Assembly: GCF_024808665.1 (NCBI RefSeq)
Contig: NZ_JANUBZ010000009.1
Coordinates: 62,001-126,000 of the forward strand
Length of the DNA: 64,000 bases
Direction of reading: 5' to 3'
From: Mucilaginibacter empetricola
Lineage (GTDB): Bacteria > Bacteroidota > Bacteroidia > Sphingobacteriales > Sphingobacteriaceae
In this document: piece by piece, positions 39,723-63,558 of the stretch
Numbering within the stretch: position 1 is the stretch's first letter
How the letters are laid out: the number at the start of each line of letters is the position of its first letter
The notes under the pieces: model-generated
What the model saw: only the letters and a program-made list of their open reading frames with translations
Database searches by the model: none
What the model was told of the DNA's origin: nothing
Program-made: the position numbers and the translations under genes

Positions 39723-40232
39723 TTACTTTTTCTTTCTATCCTCAGCATCGGCCAAAACGTGCATAATTTCCTTTACCAGGTCTACGTTAGCATCTTTTAA
39801 ACGGTCATCGCCCTTAAAAGATTCGTCAAACAATACCTTTTTACTTTTGCGCTCGTAGTTAAATTCAATATAATAATGCAGCGGTTTACGGCCATGGAAG
39901 TCCGTAGTATCGCTATTCAACTCTTTTGTGGGAAAGTCCCAAAATCCCAGATCGGCCGCTTTACGGTGCAGATACAGCAGGTCATCCTTGGTTAATAATA
40001 AAGTGCTTTTTACCAGAGAGTCTTTTTTGTTAACGTAGTCGTATTCGCCGGTTAATGAGTTGTAAGTATTCACTAAACTATCACCATAGCCATATTTAAA
40101 CACAAATGATTTAAATTCAGTAAACTTATAAGGTGCGTTTTTTAGCATCCGGCTATAATAATACACACAATACAGCAGGAACGGAACGATTATAGTTAAG
40201 AGTAGAAATACTTTTTTAGCTTTATCAGACAT
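39723..40232 (-). CDS. Membrane-anchored hypothetical protein (169 aa)
   Basis: The protein has one N-terminal transmembrane helix (VFLLLTIIVPFLLYCVYYYS). A soluble, probably periplasmic domain follows, rich in Lys, Asp and Tyr (YKFTEFKSFVFKYGYGDSLV, LTKDDLLYLHRKAADLGFW, HYYIEFNYERKSKKVLF). No known motif is recognised. It resembles small Bacteroidota proteins of unknown function and ends in a lysine run. It lies between the dicarboxylate symporter gene and rplU, in its own transcription unit. Confidence 0.7.
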   Translation of the reverse strand: MSDKAKKVFLLLTIIVPFLLYCVYYYSRMLKNAPYKFTEFKSFVFKYGYGDSLVNTYNSLTGEYDYVNKKDSLVKSTLLLTKDDLLYLHRKAADLGFWDFPTKELNSDTTDFHGRKPLHYYIEFNYERKSKKVLFDESFKGDDRLKDANVDLVKEIMHVLADAEDRKKK

Positions 40233-54108: not shown

Positions 54109-54543
54109 ATGCTATCAAAAAAAACCAAGTACGCTATTAAGGCTCTCGTAGTCCTGGGCAAAAATGCGGATCAACCACCAATGCAAATTTCTAAGATTGC
54201 GGAGGAAGAGCGGATTCCAAAAAAGTTTCTTGAACAGATATTGTTAGACTTGCGCAATGCGGGCTTTCTTTACAGTAAAAAAGGAGCTGGTGGTGGCTAT
54301 AGTCTGAATAAAGACCCCAAAGAGATATTTTTAGTAAGTATTATGCGTATCACCGATGGCCCTATAGCCATGGTACCCTGCGCTAGTCTTAACTTTTACC
54401 ACAAATGCGAAGAGTGCCGCCAGGAAACTACCTGTGGTATCCGTGATGTATTTGTTGAGGTGAGAGATGCTACTCTTAAAATCCTTTCGGAAACCAGCAT
54501 CGCCGATATTATTGCCAGAGAAAATACGCTGATCAACGTTTAA
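54109..54543 (+). CDS. Rrf2-family transcriptional regulator with four-Cys cluster
   Basis: The 144-residue protein has the Rrf2 winged helix: KTKYAIKALVVLGKNADQPPMQISKIAEEERIPKKFLEQILLDLRNAG, then GGGYSLNKDP. The C-terminal half holds Cys91, Cys100, Cys103 and Cys109 (C-x8-C-x2-C-x5-C), a plausible iron-sulfur site as in IscR/NsrR-type members. Rrf2 members also include CymR, the cysteine-metabolism regulator. It lies 1.6 kb upstream of the sulfate-assimilation operon, separated by one gene on the other strand, so regulation of sulfur assimilation is a reasonable guess but unproven. Confidence 0.88.
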   Translation: MLSKKTKYAIKALVVLGKNADQPPMQISKIAEEERIPKKFLEQILLDLRNAGFLYSKKGAGGGYSLNKDPKEIFLVSIMRITDGPIAMVPCASLNFYHKCEECRQETTCGIRDVFVEVRDATLKILSETSIADIIARENTLINV

Positions 54544-55829: not shown

Positions 55830-56026
55830 ATCCATCAAAAATAGATTATTTAACATTATTTAAAAGTTAGCTGAAGTTAAATTTATTATCCGGCAATCGG
55901 CATTAAAACAAATAAATCGGTGTAAATTAGGGATAGCCAAGCAAACATAAAACTTGCTTTAAATGTAATAGAAGCGTAAAAGTTGTTTTTTATGAAATAA
56001 TTACTACTACTTCCGTATAGTATGTA

Positions 56027-56034
56027 TATATTTG
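56027..56034 (+). promoter_or_regulatory. -7 box of the sulfate-assimilation operon
   Basis: TATATTTG matches TAnnTTTG exactly. Transcription would start near 56040, leaving about 40 nt before the leader peptide ATG (56080) and about 150 nt before the sulfite reductase gene. Confidence 0.6.
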
Positions 56035-56079
56035 TCATATAATATGAGAGCGACCTATTTCAGAAGTAAAAAAACGACG

Positions 56080-56109
56080 ATGTATTGCTGTATGTATAGT
56101 AATGTATAA
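56080..56109 (+). CDS. Cys leader peptide MYCCMYSNV of the sulfur operon
   Basis: A nine-codon ORF with two adjacent Cys codons lies between a TAnnTTTG promoter box and an intrinsic terminator. Its stop codon overlaps the first strand of the antiterminator. The MYCCM word recurs in the leader at 16810, with one synonymous difference in its codons. Ribosome stalling at the Cys codons under cysteine shortage would leave the antiterminator strand free. Prompt translation to the stop would cover it and allow termination. Confidence 0.8.
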   Translation: MYCCMYSNV

Positions 56110-56167
56110 GAGGCTCTACAGTGTTTAAAATAACAGGCCTCTTTAGCTTAGGCAAAGAGGCTTTTTT
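56108..56167 (+). promoter_or_regulatory. Transcription attenuator: antiterminator and terminator hairpins
   Basis: The terminator is GCCTCTTT (56137-56144) pairing with AAAGAGGC (56154-56161), followed by TTTTTT (56162-56167). The antiterminator is AAGAGGC (56108-56114) pairing with GCCTCTT (56137-56143). The two share the same strand, so only one can form. The upstream strand sits on the leader stop codon. The terminator lies before the first gene of the operon, with only a divergent gene upstream, so it cannot be ending another transcript. Confidence 0.85.
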
Positions 56168-56191
56168 ATATCATAAAATTAAATTAACGTT

Positions 56192-58285
56192 ATGCAGAGC
56201 TTCAGAACAGAACTGGAGAACCCAATAGTAGAAAAAGACATTATCGACCTTGAAAAAAAGATCAGGGCTTTTCGTGAAGGAAAGATCCATGATGAAAAAT
56301 TCAGGAGTCTGCGTCTTGCCCGGGGAGTTTACGGTCAGCGCCAGCCGGGTGTGCAAATGGTGCGCATAAAACTACCATTTGGCAAAGTAACATTTAAGCA
56401 ATTACTAAGGATTGCAGATATTTCAGACAAATACGGAAGCAGTAATTTGCATTTAACCACCCGTCAGGATATTCAAATTCATTACGTAAGCTTGGATCGG
56501 ACGCCACAATTATGGGCAGAGTTGGAACAGGATGATATTACCCTGCGCGAAGCCTGTGGTAACACCGTAAGAAATGTTACCTCCTCTCCCGCTGCAGGTA
56601 TTGATCCTGCCGAACCATTTGATGTTTCGCCATATGCGCAGGCTGTATTTGAATACTTTTTGCGTAACCCAATTTGCCAGGAAATGGGCCGTAAATTTAA
56701 GATTTCTTTTTCATCAAGCGATGCCGATACGGCCTTTTCGTATATACATGATATCGGCGCTATTCCTAAAATAAATAGCGATGGCGGGCGTGGCTTCAAA
56801 ATAATGTTAGGTGGTGGTTTAGGTGCGCAGCCTCTGTTAGCAAGTATTGTTGAGGATTTCTTACCCGAAGATCAGCTGATCCCATACATTGAAGCTATTA
56901 TCCGTGTATTTGATCGCCATGGCGAGCGCAATAACCGGAACAAGGCCCGTTTAAAATACCTGATTCAAAAAATTGGACTGGAAGAAGTTTTATCACTGGC
57001 TAAAGCTGAAAGACTGGCTTTAAAAGTGAAGACCTTTAAAGTAAACAGAGATACAGTACCCGCTCCGGCTATACCAGAACTTATTGCAAATGTGGACGTG
57101 GCTATTGTTAATCCATTCCGTTATGAGCAATGGTTGGCAACCAATGTATTTGAGCAAAAACAGCAAGGATTTTATGGCGTATATGTTAAAGTTCCGGTTG
57201 GTGATATTCATTCTGACGTAGCACGCAAACTGGTGGAAGCAATAAGGCCATATGTTGCAGATGAGATCAGAATTACTCAAAATCAGGGATTGTTATTAAA
57301 ATATGTACGCAAAGAAGCATTACCAGCTTTATATGCCGGTTTAACTGCTTTGGATTTATCTGCTCCCGGCTTTGACAGTATGGCTGACGTTACCACCTGC
57401 CCCGGTACAGATACTTGTAACTTAGGAATCTCTAATAGCATGACCTTATCAAAGGTGCTGGAAGATTTGATTTATAATGAATACGAAGATTTAATTTATA
57501 ACCGCGAAATAAAGATAAAAATCAGTGGCTGTATGAACTCCTGCGGTCAGCATGGTTTGGCGCATATTGGTTTTCATGGAAGTTCGTTAAAAGCCGGAAC
57601 AAAGGTGTTGCCGTCGGTTCAGGTTCTTTTGGGGGGAGGTACTGTAGGTGATGGCGTTGGTCGTGCGGCTGAAAAAGTAATAAAAGTACCCGCTAAACGC
57701 GCTACCCATGTTTTAAGAGCGGTTTTGGATGATTATAAAATCACTGCCATTCAGGATGAAACTTTCCATGCCTATTATGATCGCCAGGGGAAAGATTATT
57801 TCTACCAATTATTGAAGCCTTTGGCCGATTTAACTACTTTAACCGAAGAAGAATTTGTAGACTGGGGACATCAGGAAACTTTTGCCACCGCAATTGGTGT
57901 CGGCGAATGTGCCGGTGTAGTAATTGACCTGGTAGCAACTTTATTATTTGAGGCCGATGAGAAATTTGGGTGGTCAAAAGAAGCGTTTGCCGATGGCAGA
58001 TGGGCCGATGCTATTTATCATGCTTACAATACATTTATAAGTTCGGCCAAAGCCTTATTGCTGGATAAAAATGTAAACAGTAGCACGCAAACAGGCATCA
58101 TCCGTGAATTTGACGTTCAATATGTAAGCACAGGAGAAATTAAACTGGGCGGTAGCTTTAGTGACCTGATATTACAAATCAACAAAAACGAACCATCAGA
58201 AAGCTTTGCGATAGCTTATATTAAAGAAGCCAATGATTTTTTAACAAAAGTAAAAGCCAAAAGAGAGGAATTGGTGCAATCATGA
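56192..58285 (+). CDS. Assimilatory sulfite reductase (siroheme, nitrite/sulfite reductase family)
   Basis: The 697-residue enzyme reduces sulfite to sulfide. Duplicated ferredoxin-like and catalytic domains are visible (LPFGKVTFKQLLRIADISDKYG, HLTTRQDIQIHYV, NVTSSPAAGIDP). The siroheme/4Fe-4S cysteines are TTCPGTDTCNLG (Cys403, Cys409) and ISGCMNSCGQHG (Cys447, Cys451), the C-x5-C...C-x3-C pattern. The last ~130 residues (from about LTEEEFVDWGHQE) form a helical HEPN-like extension not needed for the known reaction. It is the first structural gene of the operon. Nitrite reduction is an alternative, but the CysHDN genes downstream favour sulfite. Confidence 0.92.
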   Translation: MQSFRTELENPIVEKDIIDLEKKIRAFREGKIHDEKFRSLRLARGVYGQRQPGVQMVRIKLPFGKVTFKQLLRIADISDKYGSSNLHLTTRQDIQIHYVSLDRTPQLWAELEQDDITLREACGNTVRNVTSSPAAGIDPAEPFDVSPYAQAVFEYFLRNPICQEMGRKFKISFSSSDADTAFSYIHDIGAIPKINSDGGRGFKIMLGGGLGAQPLLASIVEDFLPEDQLIPYIEAIIRVFDRHGERNNRNKARLKYLIQKIGLEEVLSLAKAERLALKVKTFKVNRDTVPAPAIPELIANVDVAIVNPFRYEQWLATNVFEQKQQGFYGVYVKVPVGDIHSDVARKLVEAIRPYVADEIRITQNQGLLLKYVRKEALPALYAGLTALDLSAPGFDSMADVTTCPGTDTCNLGISNSMTLSKVLEDLIYNEYEDLIYNREIKIKISGCMNSCGQHGLAHIGFHGSSLKAGTKVLPSVQVLLGGGTVGDGVGRAAEKVIKVPAKRATHVLRAVLDDYKITAIQDETFHAYYDRQGKDYFYQLLKPLADLTTLTEEEFVDWGHQETFATAIGVGECAGVVIDLVATLLFEADEKFGWSKEAFADGRWADAIYHAYNTFISSAKALLLDKNVNSSTQTGIIREFDVQYVSTGEIKLGGSFSDLILQINKNEPSESFAIAYIKEANDFLTKVKAKREELVQS

Positions 58286-59073
58286 TAATTACTTCAACTA
58301 AAAAAACGATAAAAGAACCCCGCATTACTTTGGTAGGTGCAGGACCCGGTGACCCCGATCTGATTACTTTAAAAGCCGTTAAAGCTTTAAATACTGCGGA
58401 TGTCGTGTTATATGACGCATTGGTAAATGAAGAACTATTACAGCATGCTCCTGAAAATGCAACCAAGGTTTACGTCGGAAAACGTTCTGGTGATCATACT
58501 TATTCGCAGGATGCGGTTAATAAATTGATGGTTGATTATGCTATCAATTATGGCCACGTAGTACGTTTAAAAGGTGGCGATCCGTTTGTATTTGGCCGAG
58601 GCTTTGAAGAATTAGATTTTGCAGCATCTTATAGTATCCCTGCACAGGTTATTCCGGGTATTTCCAGCTCAATTGGTGTACCGGGGATGCAAAATATTCC
58701 GGTAACCCATCGCGGTTTAAGTGAGAGCTTTTGGGTAGTAACAGGTACTACGGCCAATGGCAGCGTGTCAAATGATATTTATGAAGCAGCCCGTACAAAG
58801 GCTACAATTGTAGTATTAATGGGGATTCATAAACTGGCTGAGATTGCCGAAATTTTTAAAAAAGAAGGTAAGAATAAATTGCCGGTAGCCGTAATTCAAA
58901 GCGGAACTACTGATAATGAAAAAGTTGCTATTGGCATGGTAGATACGATTGTTGAAGTAGTAGCAGAAAAGAAGATCACCTCACCGGCGCTGATAGTTTT
59001 TGGCGAAGTGGTATCTTTACATCCACAATTTCAACCTATCAAAGAGTTTTATGACATTATTGCCGAAGGATAG
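58282..59073 (+). CDS. cobA: Uroporphyrinogen-III C-methyltransferase (SUMT)
   Basis: The 263-residue SAM-dependent enzyme makes precorrin-2, the siroheme precursor needed by the sulfite reductase. Motifs are ITLVGAGPGDPDLITLKAVKAL, VVLYDALVNEELL, VVRLKGGDPFVFGRGFEELDF, VIPGISSSIGVPGMQNIPVTHRG and the late ALIVFGEVV. It overlaps the sulfite reductase gene by 4 bp. The next gene (siroheme synthase-permease fusion) overlaps its end by 23 bp. It supplies cofactor locally, so cofactor and apoenzyme are made together. Confidence 0.94.
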   Translation: MIITSTKKTIKEPRITLVGAGPGDPDLITLKAVKALNTADVVLYDALVNEELLQHAPENATKVYVGKRSGDHTYSQDAVNKLMVDYAINYGHVVRLKGGDPFVFGRGFEELDFAASYSIPAQVIPGISSSIGVPGMQNIPVTHRGLSESFWVVTGTTANGSVSNDIYEAARTKATIVVLMGIHKLAEIAEIFKKEGKNKLPVAVIQSGTTDNEKVAIGMVDTIVEVVAEKKITSPALIVFGEVVSLHPQFQPIKEFYDIIAEG

Positions 59074-60559
59074 CGGATTAAAGAGCATTCAAAACGAAAA
59101 ATCAGAAGGCAATCCTTTGTTTCCTGTTTTTTTGAAACTGAATGAATTGCATACAGTACTGGTTGGTGCAGGCCATGTAGGTTTAGAAAAACTGACGGCT
59201 ATTTTAAACAACAGTGCTGAGGCAACCGTAACCGTTATTGCTTTGACTATTTTGCCCGAAGTTCATTTATTGGCGGCAGAATACAAAGGCGTAAAAATTA
59301 TTCAGAAAACATTTACTGATGCTGATTTAAACACGGCTGACGTGGTAATTGCTGCAACCAACGATAATGAGTTAAATAAATTTATACGCCAGGCAGCGCA
59401 CGACAGGAAATTACTGATTAATGTTGCCGACAAGCCCGAACTTTGCGATTTTTATCTGGGCTCAATAGTTCAAAAAGGTGATCTGAAAATAGCAATATCA
59501 ACTAATGGTAAATCACCCACTATTGCCAAGCGTTTAAAAGAGGTTTTGAATGAAAGTTTGCCGACTGAATTAGATATAACGTTGCAGCAAATGAGTGCGC
59601 TGCGCAACTCTTTAAATGGCGATTTTACTTATAAAGTTAAAAAATTGAACGAAGTAACTTCAGTATTGGTTGAACCAAAACAACCATCAAAAAAGAACAT
59701 CACCCCGTACATCTGGGGTGCAGCAATATTGATCGTAGCTATTGCTGTTGCCGCGCTTTGGATTCAAGAACCGGGCTTTAAACTTTATGCTCAAAATATT
59801 AACCCGCTGTTTTATTACTTTTTGGGTGCAGGCTTTGTATTTGCCTTAATAGATGGCGCAATCGGCATGTCATATGGTGTTACTTCAACTACATTTTCTC
59901 TTTCAATGGGCATCCCTCCTGCTTCGGCAAGTATGGGTGTACACCTGTCTGAAATTATGAGTAATGGTATTGCCGGTTGGATGCATTACCGAATGGGTAA
60001 TATCAACTGGAAATTGTTTTGGTTATTAGTGGTACCAGGCATTATAGGTGCTATGACGGGAGCCTATTTGCTATCCTCGCTTGAGCATTATAGTCAGTAT
60101 ACCAAGCCTTTTGTATCACTATACACTTTAATATTAGGCTTGGTAATCTTGTCAAAGGCGTTTAAAAAAAGAGTCTTAAAATCATCCCAAAAAATAAAAA
60201 GAATACAGCTTTTAGGTTTGGGTGGCGGCTTTATTGACGCTGTTGGCGGCGGCGGCTGGGGTTCTATTGTATTGTCAACCTTAATAGCTGGCGGCAGGCA
60301 CCCGCGTTTTTCGTTAGGAACGGTAAAACTATCGCGGTTTTTTATAGCAATAACCAGCAGTTTTGTATTTTTTACCATCCTTAATTCCCATCATTGGGAA
60401 GCTGTTGCCGGGCTGGTAATAGGTAGCGCTATTGCATCGCCAATAGCTGCAAAAATATCAAATAAGATATCGGCCAAAGCCATTATGATAGCCGTTGCGG
60501 TAATTGTAATTCTAATCAGCGTAAAAAGCATCGTTGCATTTTTAACAAAGATTGTTTAA
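59051..60559 (+). CDS. Fusion of siroheme synthase (CysG N-type) and TauE/SafE (TSUP) permease
   Basis: The start is ATG 59051, inside the end of cobA; the longer frame begins at TTG. Residues about 25-215 are a precorrin-2 dehydrogenase/ferrochelatase-like domain (HTVLVGAGHVGLEKLTAIL, VVIAATNDNELNKFIRQAA, INVADKPELCDFYLGS, IAISTNGKSPTIAKRLKEVL). After a helix near 225-245, a TSUP permease domain follows (about 265-502), with two repeats marked by LIDGAIGMSYGVTSTTFSLSMG and GGFIDAVGGGGWGSIVLSTL. TSUP proteins move sulfite, sulfate or organosulfonates. The single chain thus joins a cytosolic cofactor enzyme to a sulfur-anion transporter, probably for import here. Confidence 0.85.
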   Translation: MTLLPKDSGLKSIQNEKSEGNPLFPVFLKLNELHTVLVGAGHVGLEKLTAILNNSAEATVTVIALTILPEVHLLAAEYKGVKIIQKTFTDADLNTADVVIAATNDNELNKFIRQAAHDRKLLINVADKPELCDFYLGSIVQKGDLKIAISTNGKSPTIAKRLKEVLNESLPTELDITLQQMSALRNSLNGDFTYKVKKLNEVTSVLVEPKQPSKKNITPYIWGAAILIVAIAVAALWIQEPGFKLYAQNINPLFYYFLGAGFVFALIDGAIGMSYGVTSTTFSLSMGIPPASASMGVHLSEIMSNGIAGWMHYRMGNINWKLFWLLVVPGIIGAMTGAYLLSSLEHYSQYTKPFVSLYTLILGLVILSKAFKKRVLKSSQKIKRIQLLGLGGGFIDAVGGGGWGSIVLSTLIAGGRHPRFSLGTVKLSRFFIAITSSFVFFTILNSHHWEAVAGLVIGSAIASPIAAKISNKISAKAIMIAVAVIVILISVKSIVAFLTKIV

Positions 60560-60560
60560 G

Positions 60561-61271
60561 ATGAGTGAATTAGCAGAACATATAAAAAAAGAAACCTCTG
60601 GTCTTAATCCTGTTGAGGCGTTAACGCTTTTGGCTGATATTTTCCCGGATGAAGTTGTTTTTTCAACCAGTTTTGGATGGGAAGATCAGGTGATTACGCA
60701 TATGATATTCACTAATAATTTGCCAATAAAAATTTTCACTTTAGAAACAGGCCGGTTATTCCCTGAAACCTATTATGTATGGAACCGTACCATGGAAATA
60801 TACGGTAAACCCATACACGCTTATTACCCACAGCACGAACTTTTGGAGCAGATGGTAAATTCCAAAGGCCCCAGCAGTTTTTATGAATCTGTAGAAAATA
60901 GAAAAGAGTGTTGCGGAATTCGTAAAATTGAACCTTTAAAGCGCGCTTTAGCAGGCAATAAATGCTGGATAACCGGGATCCGTGCGGAGCAATCAGCCAA
61001 TCGGCAGCATATGGAAAATGTGGAATGGGATGAGCAAAATCAGTTGGTAAAATACCATCCTATTTACAATTGGACTTTAGACGAAGTAAAAGAATACATA
61101 AAAAAATATAACATACCTTATAACACGCTTCACGACAAAGGTTTTCCGAGTATAGGTTGTGCGCCTTGTACAAGAGCCGTACAGCCGGGCGAAGATTTCA
61201 GAGCCGGCAGATGGTGGTGGGAAGATCAGTCGAAAAAAGAGTGCGGGTTGCATGAGGTAAAAGCAAGTTAA
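60561..61271 (+). CDS. cysH: APS reductase (thioredoxin-dependent, 4Fe-4S type)
   Basis: I chose ATG 60561 (MSELAEHIKKETSG), giving about 236 residues. The PAPS-reductase fold is clear: FSTSFGWEDQVITHMIF near 35, ETGRLFPETYYVW, and the catalytic ECGLH at Cys228. A CC pair (Cys117, Cys118 in KECCGIRK) and C-x2-C (Cys200, Cys203 in GCAPCTR) make the 4Fe-4S cluster of APS-specific reductases, so it should reduce APS directly. This fits with no cysC (APS kinase) in the operon. It starts one base after the stop of the previous gene. Confidence 0.92.
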   Translation: MSELAEHIKKETSGLNPVEALTLLADIFPDEVVFSTSFGWEDQVITHMIFTNNLPIKIFTLETGRLFPETYYVWNRTMEIYGKPIHAYYPQHELLEQMVNSKGPSSFYESVENRKECCGIRKIEPLKRALAGNKCWITGIRAEQSANRQHMENVEWDEQNQLVKYHPIYNWTLDEVKEYIKKYNIPYNTLHDKGFPSIGCAPCTRAVQPGEDFRAGRWWWEDQSKKECGLHEVKAS

Positions 61272-61288
61272 TACTATAATTATAACAA

Positions 61289-62194
61289 ATGAGTAAGCAT
61301 CAGCTGGATTATTTAGATGAGTTGGAGGCGGAAGCCATTTATATCCTGCGCGAAGTAGCCGGTCAGTTTGAAAAACCTGCCTTGTTGTTTTCGGGCGGAA
61401 AAGATTCTATCACGTTGGTACGTTTGGCTGAAAAAGCTTTCAGACCGGGAAAATTTCCTTTTCCGCTGGTACATATCGATACCGGCCATAATTTTATTGA
61501 AACCATTGAGTACCGCGATAACATGATTAAGCGTATCGGTGAAAAGCTGATTGTTGGACATGTACAAGATTCAATTGATGAAGGCAAGGTAGTTGAGCAA
61601 AAAGGCAAAAATGCCAGTCGTAATGCTTTGCAAACGGTTACCTTATTAGATACTATAGCCAAACATCAGTTTGATGCCTGCATTGGTGGCGCCCGTCGTG
61701 ATGAGGAAAAAGCAAGGGCAAAAGAACGAATATTTTCTGTGCGCGATGAGTTTGGACAATGGGATCCGAAACGCCAGCGGCCAGAACTATGGAATATTTT
61801 TAACGGCAAAATTCACAAAGGCGAAAATGTAAGGGTATTTCCTATCAGTAACTGGACGGAGCTGGACGTTTGGAACTATATCCGCAGGGAAAAAATTGAT
61901 CTGCCGTCTATTTACTTCGCTCATGAGCGTGACTGCATTACCCGTAACGGACAGTTAATGGCAGCTTCACCCTTTTTAAACATGGATGAGGACGATATCA
62001 TCACCAAACAAAATGTGCGCTTCCGTACCGTTGGTGATATGACCTGCACTGCTGCCGTAGAATCATATGCTTACCATATTGATGATATTATTGATGAAAT
62101 AAGCGCATCAAAAATAAGTGAGCGTGGCGCCCGCATGGACGATAAAGTATCTGAAGCTGCCATGGAGGACCGCAAAAAAGGCGGCTATTTTTAA
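61289..62194 (+). CDS. cysD: Sulfate adenylyltransferase subunit 2
   Basis: The 301-residue PP-loop enzyme makes APS from ATP and sulfate with CysN. Motifs are LLFSGGKDSITLVRLAEKAF, LVHIDTGHNFIETIEYRD, ACIGGARRDEEKARAKERIFSVRDEFGQWDPKRQRPELW, VFPISNWTELDVWNYI and YFAHERDC. Length and order match E. coli CysD. Between it and cysN lies a ~110-bp gap with a remarkable inverted repeat, so translation of cysN is not directly coupled. Confidence 0.96.
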   Translation: MSKHQLDYLDELEAEAIYILREVAGQFEKPALLFSGGKDSITLVRLAEKAFRPGKFPFPLVHIDTGHNFIETIEYRDNMIKRIGEKLIVGHVQDSIDEGKVVEQKGKNASRNALQTVTLLDTIAKHQFDACIGGARRDEEKARAKERIFSVRDEFGQWDPKRQRPELWNIFNGKIHKGENVRVFPISNWTELDVWNYIRREKIDLPSIYFAHERDCITRNGQLMAASPFLNMDEDDIITKQNVRFRTVGDMTCTAAVESYAYHIDDIIDEISASKISERGARMDDKVSEAAMEDRKKGGYF

Positions 62195-62201
62195 CAACAT
62201 T

Positions 62202-62272
62202 TTGTTGGTGACAACACCAACAAAGGCAAAAAGGTTGTAAGACTACGCCATTGTTGGTGTTGTCACCAACAA
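62202..62272. repeat. Self-complementary 22-bp inverted repeat pair between cysD and cysN
   Basis: The left arm 62202-62223 (TTGTTGGTG, ACAA, CACCAACAA) is an exact reverse complement of the right arm 62251-62272 (TTGTTGGTG, TTGT, CACCAACAA). Each arm is itself a 9-bp hairpin with a 4-base loop, so two alternative folds exist: two small hairpins, or one 22-bp cruciform stem. The spacer contains GTAAGACTACGCC. This looks like a REP/MITE-type dispersed element. The right arm is followed by degenerate CCGAAAT words. Confidence 0.9.
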
Positions 62273-62307
62273 TCCGAAATCGAAAATCCGAATTCCGAAA
62301 TAACAAA

Positions 62308-63558
62308 ATGGATATATTAAAATTTATTACTGCAGGTAGTGTTGATGATGGTAAAAGTACGCTAATCGGAAGGTTGCTGTATGACAGCGAATCTATATTG
62401 GCCGATCAGCTGGAGGCCCTGCATCGTTCAAACCGCAAAAATGATGACGGCAGTATTGACCTTGCCATATTAACCGACGGCTTGAAAGCCGAACGCGAAC
62501 AAGGTATTACTATTGATGTCGCCTATAAATACTTTCAAACCGAAAAACGCAAATTTATTATTGCGGATACACCCGGCCACATCCAGTATACCCGTAACAT
62601 GGTAACCGGTGCCTCAAATGCTAACCTGGCTATTATCTTGATTGATGCGCGTAAGGGCGTTATAGAGCAAACTACCCGACACTCATTCTTGATATCGTTA
62701 TTAGGCTTACCTCAGGTGGTGGTTTGTATTAACAAAATGGATATGGTTGACTATAGCGAAGAAGTTTACAACAAAATTGTAGCCGATTATAAAGTACTTG
62801 CTGAAAAGGTTGGCCTTGAAAATGTTACTTATATCCCAGTAAGTGCTTTAAAAGGCGATAATATTGTTTATCCATCGGTAAATATTGGCTGGTACAAAGG
62901 CGAAAGTTTGCTGCATCTGTTAGAAACTATCGAGATTAAAATTGACGACAGTAAAGCTCACGCACGTTTTCCGGTACAATGGGTGGTACGTCCGCAAACG
63001 GAAGAACTGCATGATTATAGAGGTTATGCAGGCCGTGTTTCGAGCGGATCATTTAAGGTTGATGATAAAGTGACTGTACTCCCATCGGGCTTTAATTCAA
63101 CCATCGAAAAAATTGAATTACTTGATGAAGAACCTGAAGAGGCATTTGCCGGTATGTCGGTAACTATCCATTTAAAGGATGAGATTGATATTAGCCGGGG
63201 AGACATATTGGTTAATACCCATTATCAGCCGGAAGTGTCACAACAAATAGAAGCTGATCTTTGCTGGATGGATACACGGGTGTTGGATACTACGCACACT
63301 TATTTTATACAACACAATAGCAAAGTAACTCGTTGCCGCATACAGGAAGTGTTATATAAAGTGAATATCAACACACTGGAAAAAGAATACAACGAAGATT
63401 TTAAACTGAACGACATAGGCCGTATCGTTATTAAAACGGCAGAGCCTCTGGCATTTGATTTATATCAGAATAATAAGGCAAATGGCGGCGCAATAATTAT
63501 TGATAGCCGTACTAATGTTACTGTAGGCGCGTTAATGCTTAGAGCGACGGTTGAATAA
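62308..63558 (+). CDS. cysN: Sulfate adenylyltransferase subunit 1 (GTPase)
   Basis: The start at ATG 62308 (MDILKFITAGSVDDGKSTLIG) is chosen; the longer frame begins with TTG inside the repeat. The ~416-residue EF-Tu-like GTPase couples GTP hydrolysis to APS synthesis with CysD. G motifs are GSVDDGKST, DTPGHIQYTRNM, CINKMDMVDY and VSALKGDN. EF-Tu-like domains 2 and 3 follow. No CysC (APS kinase) domain is fused at the C-terminus, consistent with the APS-type CysH. It is the last gene of the operon, before a terminator. Confidence 0.96.
   Translation: MDILKFITAGSVDDGKSTLIGRLLYDSESILADQLEALHRSNRKNDDGSIDLAILTDGLKAEREQGITIDVAYKYFQTEKRKFIIADTPGHIQYTRNMVTGASNANLAIILIDARKGVIEQTTRHSFLISLLGLPQVVVCINKMDMVDYSEEVYNKIVADYKVLAEKVGLENVTYIPVSALKGDNIVYPSVNIGWYKGESLLHLLETIEIKIDDSKAHARFPVQWVVRPQTEELHDYRGYAGRVSSGSFKVDDKVTVLPSGFNSTIEKIELLDEEPEEAFAGMSVTIHLKDEIDISRGDILVNTHYQPEVSQQIEADLCWMDTRVLDTTHTYFIQHNSKVTRCRIQEVLYKVNINTLEKEYNEDFKLNDIGRIVIKTAEPLAFDLYQNNKANGGAIIIDSRTNVTVGALMLRATVE

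Follow-up and report, generated by a model that had tools for sequence, protein, structure and literature searches.

In the window, the 64,000-nt stretch of the 5.8 Mb genome of Mucilaginibacter empetricola analysed here, the sulfate-assimilation genes are preceded by what is very probably a leader-peptide transcription attenuator, one that would make sulfate assimilation depend on how much charged cysteine tRNA, and perhaps methionine tRNA, is available. RNA polymerase would start a few nucleotides ahead of the AUG of the leader, which a ribosome would load onto and translate. When Cys-tRNA is scarce, this ribosome would stall on UGC UGU with its front edge just short of position 56108, and the strand left free at that position would pair with the 5' arm of an intrinsic terminator, giving read-through into the sulfite reductase, siroheme, cysH and cysDN genes and thus, presumably, an operon-wide effect. 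When Cys-tRNA is plentiful, the ribosome would advance and cover the strand, the terminator would form and transcription would stop near 56165. Cysteine attenuation ahead of these genes had been proposed in a first-pass annotation of the same DNA, and the proposal is supported here by an anatomy that recurs in relatives and by strands that match each other within loci.

Organization of the leader

The leader lies behind a -7 promoter element of the TAnnTTTG type, TATATTTG (56027-56034, + strand; the element as defined in passages of PMC7366714 and PMC6847099), the same stretch in which a promoter box had been recognized earlier. Nine nucleotides past this box, an ATG at 56044 opens a frame that continues uninterrupted for 21 codons up to a TAA (56044-56109, + strand; peptide MRATYFRSKKTTMYCCMYSNV), and whose tail (56080-56109, + strand) reads ATG TAT TGC TGT ATG TAT AGT AAT GTA TAA. 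The two Cys codons in it, TGC TGT (56086-56091, + strand), are the proposed stall site. The antiterminator strand AAGAGGCT (56108-56115, + strand) starts 17 nt beyond the end of the second Cys codon, and its alternative partner is the terminator 5' arm GGCCTCTTT (56136-56144, + strand). The terminator 3' arm AAAGAGGC (56154-56161, + strand) and a run of six T (56162-56167, + strand) complete the element, and transcription would be expected to stop near that run.

Two mutually exclusive helices can thus be drawn. The terminator stem joins GCCTCTTT (56137-56144) to AAAGAGGC directly ahead of the six T, and the alternative pairing joins AAGAGGCT to GGCCTCTT; within the latter, AAGAGGC (56108-56114) can pair with GCCTCTT, and its first base is the second base of the leader stop codon, just as the first-pass annotation had it. 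Folded in isolation, the terminator reaches -16.1 kcal/mol (z -4.10; none of 200 shuffles does as well), and for an RNA ending before the 3' arm (56104-56150), which takes up the alternative pairing, the value is -13.1 kcal/mol (z -2.32; 5 of 200 shuffles do as well). Both the 8-bp stem with its six T and the 7-bp pairing that excludes it, which that annotation had described, are therefore recovered, the second also in the set-wide tests given below. In a simple scan for terminators on the + strand, with a loop limit of 8, the window terminator is absent from the list.

Start and reading frame

In the first-pass annotation, the leader was a nine-codon ORF, MYCCMYSNV, starting at 56080. Its frame and its Cys codons are present, but it is probably the tail of the 21-codon ORF, and as a unit it was rejected in favour of the better supported in-frame ATG upstream. 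The true start is likely to be 56044, with 56080 as an internal Met codon, because of what is found in the family set, in which 195 different sequences from upstream of the first gene remain when identical ones are counted once; its loci come from best-scoring or evenly drawn genomes rather than from a full census. In this set, 73 regions fit a pattern made of a TAnnTTTG box, an ATG at most 20 nt from the box and TGYTGY 18-66 nt further on, and in 69 of these 73 the first near-box ATG and TGYTGY share a frame. That frame is open in 68 of the 69 in-frame cases, and the other two frames contain stops in 67 and 45 of them.

A loose rule retains 113 of the 195 regions, likely false leaders included (e.g., L020, L133, L135, L213, L229, L249), and 59 of these 113 have their start codon exactly 4 nt past the box. 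According to passages of PMC6847099, transcription in Flavobacterium johnsoniae often begins 4-5 nt past the -7 element, and a Shine-Dalgarno sequence is not expected in Bacteroidota. Carried over from that other genus, this spacing implies that many such leaders should be leaderless, and that the RNA of the window would start about 4-5 nt before its AUG.

No constraint at the protein level was detected in the N-terminal part of the leaders, where, across 23 sister pairs, 21 codon changes are synonymous and 110 non-synonymous, as in shifted frames, which led to the rejection of protein-level conservation for this part. What is kept in the leaders, judging from these sequences, is the open frame together with the Cys codons.

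Matched pairing at a steady distance from the Cys codons

The pairing between antiterminator and terminator was scored by comparing each 7-mer past the last Cys codon with the terminator 5' arm plus loop. Out of the 113 family leaders, 83 contain CC or CxC and 80 of these have a terminator that folds; 27 leaders from other families bring the set to 107, of which 75 (52 from the family and 23 from other families) were kept after removing redundancy. Two cases were treated by hand: an overlapping frame of L171 was removed, and the first CC served as the anchor for one leader of L157. At +12 to +19 nt past the last Cys codon, the mean score in the family (n=52) is 8.06, while dinucleotide shuffles average 5.07 (sd 0.26) and between-locus arm swaps 6.71 (sd 0.21); in the other families (n=23) it is 9.42, with averages of 4.66 (sd 0.42) for shuffles and 7.27 (sd 0.35) for swaps. 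In each of these four tests, which do not correct for shared ancestry, 0 of 200 controls reach the real score. Since real pairing exceeds the swaps, the strands fit each other better within a locus than across loci, which is the mark of matched change. This swap test was chosen over formal pair counting because the strands barely vary within close groups (alignments A1 and A2). Taken locus by locus the signal is weak, with a mean duplex-energy z of -1.06 and 15% of 80 loci at p<0.05. Matched strands in other loci include GCGGTTG with CAGCCGC (L022), TGACTG with CAGTCG (L130), AGACTG with CGGTCT (L092) and CTGAAAGGCTA with TAGCCTTTCAG (L274). A comparison of the upstream regions of relatives, which the first-pass annotation had put forward as its check, thus comes out in its favour, in that the Cys ORF recurs and the pairing beats all between-locus swaps.

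The position of the pairing follows the Cys codons. Measured from the last Cys codon, the median start of the best helix is 17 nt in the family (sd 6.5) and 14 nt in the other families (sd 5.2), whereas its position relative to the stop codon has an sd of 11.7 and 13.7, respectively, a looser spacing due to stops that fall 0-48 nt past the last Cys codon. The stop codon was accordingly rejected as the positional anchor. In many relatives the antiterminator strand even lies inside the ORF. The earlier suggestion that a ribosome finishing the ORF would mask the strand is in this way modified: the strand is anchored on the last Cys codon and not on the stop, and finishing at the stop would be just one case of passing the Cys codons. 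While it decodes a Cys codon, a ribosome should shield about 10 nt of the RNA ahead, so the strand would start just past a stalled ribosome and be masked by one moving on. The position of the ribosome on the Cys codons would then be the sensor, and the fixed spacing is the best sign of it. Folding of the untranslated whole leader of the window puts the antiterminator strand partly in pairing with the coding part. Such pairing is found slightly more often than in shuffles, of which 2 of 100 and 0 of 100 reach the same level, and a protector hairpin is possible but only weakly indicated.

The signal

Methionine codons accumulate beside the Cys codons. In the family, Met accounts for 50 of the 218 non-Cys residues located in the Cys block or at most two residues from it, versus 39 of 738 elsewhere, and in other families for 47 of 115 versus 37 of 506. 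This enrichment implies that the leader may read methionine too, that is, both sulfur amino acids. It also speaks for the same ribosome switch answering to another signal, be it Met-tRNA on an equal footing, oxidative or metal stress that affects the Cys residues of the nascent peptide, or a general slowing of translation, and a copper-responsive ORF with Cys codons from another phylum counts in the same direction. Nonetheless, it is from the Cys codons that the antiterminator strand keeps its fixed distance, and the genes under control make sulfide for cysteine, which makes a different signal unlikely, although it deserves some weight.

Genes around the leader and possible control at the promoter

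The first gene behind the leader (56192-58285, + strand) encodes a nitrite/sulfite-reductase-family protein (Pfam PF01077 and PF03460) for which no NCBIfam equivalog was found at its cut-off, and which is taken as an assimilatory sulfite reductase because of its neighbours. These encode, all on the + strand, a uroporphyrinogen-III C-methyltransferase (58282-59073), a siroheme-synthase N-terminal domain fused in one frame to a TauE/SafE permease (59069-60559, start approximate), a CysH-type (phospho)adenylylsulfate reductase (60564-61271, start approximate) and the sulfate adenylyltransferase subunits CysD (61289-62194) and CysN (62308-63558, start approximate). The genes from 56192 to 63558 probably form one operon, whose products carry out sulfate assimilation and make sulfide for cysteine.

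Upstream of the leader lies a gene for an Rrf2-family regulator (54109-54543), whose best NCBIfam equivalog is CymR, of cysteine metabolism, with a score far under the cut-off; by eye, an Rrf2-like C-terminus is found directly ahead of the operon in some relatives. Also by eye, the promoter stretch at 56004-56034, CTACTACTTCCGTATAGTATG...TATATTTG, resembles that of relatives, loci without a leader included, and might contain an operator for a regulator. This regulator gene and the likeness of the promoters even where there is no leader could mean that control is exerted mainly at the promoter, by the upstream-encoded Rrf2-type regulator, the leader being minor or a decayed remnant. However, the two helices still fit each other across families, which those of a remnant would not, and such a reading is improbable. 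Promoter and leader controls may, on the other hand, act together.

Search for known RNA families and for further copies

A terminator with a competing helix is common to systems in which an RNA alone or a protein is the sensor (a riboswitch, a T-box or an RNA-binding protein), and the ORF would be incidental if the leader were one of them. Against this, Rfam yields no match that reaches its gathering score, either in the window or in 19 related loci, the ORF frame and its Cys codons recur in relatives, and across the sets no conserved sequence was seen besides the two helices, all of which leaves a sensor of this kind very improbable. With relaxed thresholds, 5 Rfam matches were obtained for 55950-56250, the best with an E of 0.11 and all of them far under their gathering scores.

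A covariance model of the leader, R1, was built from 11 relatives. In the genome of the window it recovers this locus with an E of 6e-10, along with 12 more matches with E from 0.09 to 3; among the 10 of these 13 matches that were inspected, the only one besides the leader (both strands) that lies near a short Cys-containing frame is L302, with the frame on the other strand. Within the genus, R1 finds a match with an E of at most 0.01 in 52 of 61 genomes, and the strongest ones are located, by coordinates, directly before the sulfite reductase gene. Four of the genus matches away from sulfite reductase were inspected, and these look by eye like plain terminators behind genes.

Distribution in the family, the class and the phylum

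When a uniform rule is applied to the family set (an ATG ORF of 10-34 codons starting at most 20 nt from the TAnnTTTG box), 100 of the 195 upstream regions have a near-box ORF, none being found in the other 95, and 96 of these 100 are followed by a terminator. Cys is encoded in 93 of the 96 leaders with a terminator, in 70 as CC or CxC and in 23 otherwise, and is absent from three (L031, L134, L214). A hand-made rule gives a leader in 102 of the 195 regions, a count by genus to which L019, L079 and L254 were added by hand; it corresponds to 38 of 45 same-genus loci, 14 of 24 Mucilaginibacter records, 23 of 35 from Pedobacter and 2 of 2 from Parapedobacter, and to 0 of 16 loci in genus g13. Several of the same-genus loci (L006, L014, L030) share an identical upstream region with Mucilaginibacter records. 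Some loci may be in decay: L031 has a leader without Cys codons that retains its terminator, and elsewhere the near-box ATG has apparently become ATA, with the Cys codons kept (L079) or broken (L075).

Outside the family, 32 genomes of the class sample gave a protein match, and the upstream DNA of 31 of them was examined, G380 (a weak match to another protein) being left out. One or two CC leaders precede a terminator in 18 of these 31 loci, spanning ten families (f9, f12, f15, f22, f28, f33, f36, f39, f40 and f41), and no leader was found in the other 13; within this sample L269 comprises 504 nt only, the protein match of L274 is partial and has two stops, and the leader of L262 is about 1 kb before the gene. 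Half of the loci with a leader (9 of 18: L152, L153, L157, L159, L256, L264, L265, L268 and L273) carry two Cys leaders in series, each with its own terminator, before the same gene, an arrangement that perhaps gives a steeper response. Among 20 further loci of the phylum, scanned over about 1.5 kb, there are three candidates, L292 in f57 plus L294 and L295 outside the class, the last two with partial protein matches of 40% and 37% identity and L294 with poor pairing. The remaining 17 of the 20 are without a leader in that scan, among them all 12 loci of family f49. The regions and loci lacking a leader, in the family, the class and the phylum alike, weigh against the attenuator, as do the three family leaders that have a terminator but no Cys.

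The background of the detector used here (a CC ORF followed by a terminator) amounts to one other site, at 39770, in the 128 kb of both strands of the window, and to a single site, on the reverse strand, in the roughly 133 kb scanned in other loci. As a control, ORFs with other doublets were counted before terminators in the 195 family regions: CC is found in 74 regions, LL in 52 and NN in 32, the frequency of LL being a point against the proposal. The site at 39770-39809, a short TTG frame LFCCCYELFYKVI ahead of the hairpin AAGAGCCCGCT/AGCGGGCTCTT, is probably due to chance. That the detector picks these two additional sites might suggest that a short two-Cys ORF merely happens to precede a terminator at the leader as well, but given the recurrence, the frame test and the shuffle and swap controls the odds of such a coincidence are negligible.

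Relation to known systems

Classical attenuators (trp, his, leu and others, from Proteobacteria) combine end-product codons, a terminator and an excluding antiterminator, with the position of the ribosome deciding between the two structures, and in them a protector hairpin stops transcription when the leader is untranslated. The same elements are found here: a leader ORF with codons for the end product, an intrinsic terminator (behind 96 of 100 family ORFs), a pairing that excludes it and, as proposed, a deciding ribosome. Unlike in the classical cases, three strands suffice in the main model, the protector hairpin being only weakly indicated, and the ORF would start almost at the 5' end of the RNA. 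Attenuators for other amino acids have been predicted in Bacteroidetes. Mycobacterial Cys ORFs are often leaderless, and the polycysteine leaderless ones were reportedly the subject of an experimental study by Canestrari in 2020.

The closest relatives in function appear in Actinobacteria, for which passages of Seliverstov 2005 (PMC1262725) describe candidate Cys leaders, that is, short ORFs before cysteine genes, with no conserved terminator hairpins. Like them, as far as those passages go, the leader described here is a short ORF that precedes cysteine genes and has consecutive Cys codons close to its stop, and both would work alike at the sensor. In contrast to what is described there, it has an intrinsic terminator and a matched antiterminator, and was therefore not filed with them; it also differs in belonging to another phylum, in preceding the sulfite-reductase gene, in the Met codons mixed in and in being sometimes in tandem. 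In passages of Shell 2015 (PMC4633059), a study of leaderless transcripts, cysteine-rich mycobacterial ORFs are presented as what would be the first cysteine-directed attenuation in bacteria. Bacteroid-trp (RF01692), a Bacteroidetes cis-regulatory candidate in the relevant passages of PMC2864571, concerns another amino acid and has no gathering-score match in the window or the 19 loci. The histidine leaders of bacilli, in which passages of Naville and Gautheret 2010 (PMC2965389) report a leader peptide with a terminator outside Proteobacteria, with no earlier leader peptide system known to those authors beyond Proteobacteria and Actinobacteria, resemble the present leader in that combination, and differ in being from Firmicutes and specific for histidine. 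For Bacteroides, passages of PMC7366714 mention short ORFs in long 5' UTRs that are reminiscent of leader peptides.

The attenuator is hence of a known kind, and set against Rfam and a few papers, cysteine attenuation by means of a terminator seems to be new for Bacteroidota. What appears new is the variant: terminator-based, near-leaderless, with Met codons beside those for Cys, often in tandem and present in several Bacteroidota families.

Implications

On balance, the leader is probably the representative of a widespread and perhaps ancient Bacteroidota attenuator, with near-leaderless leaders of mixed Cys and Met codons, an antiterminator set free when the ribosome stalls on Cys, and units often doubled in series. 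With it, Bacteroidota would have an attenuator that senses cysteine, found in no fewer than 11 families of one class in the sample and sometimes doubled. If the proposed mechanism is true, ribosomes load on a bare 5' end without a Shine-Dalgarno sequence in these bacteria, and the ribosome trails RNA polymerase closely enough to decide on termination within about 130 nt. The leader thereby makes testable how closely ribosomes trail RNA polymerase in a phylum that initiates without Shine-Dalgarno sequences, and the steady distance at which the antiterminator strand follows the Cys codons resembles the footprint of a ribosome recorded in many genomes.
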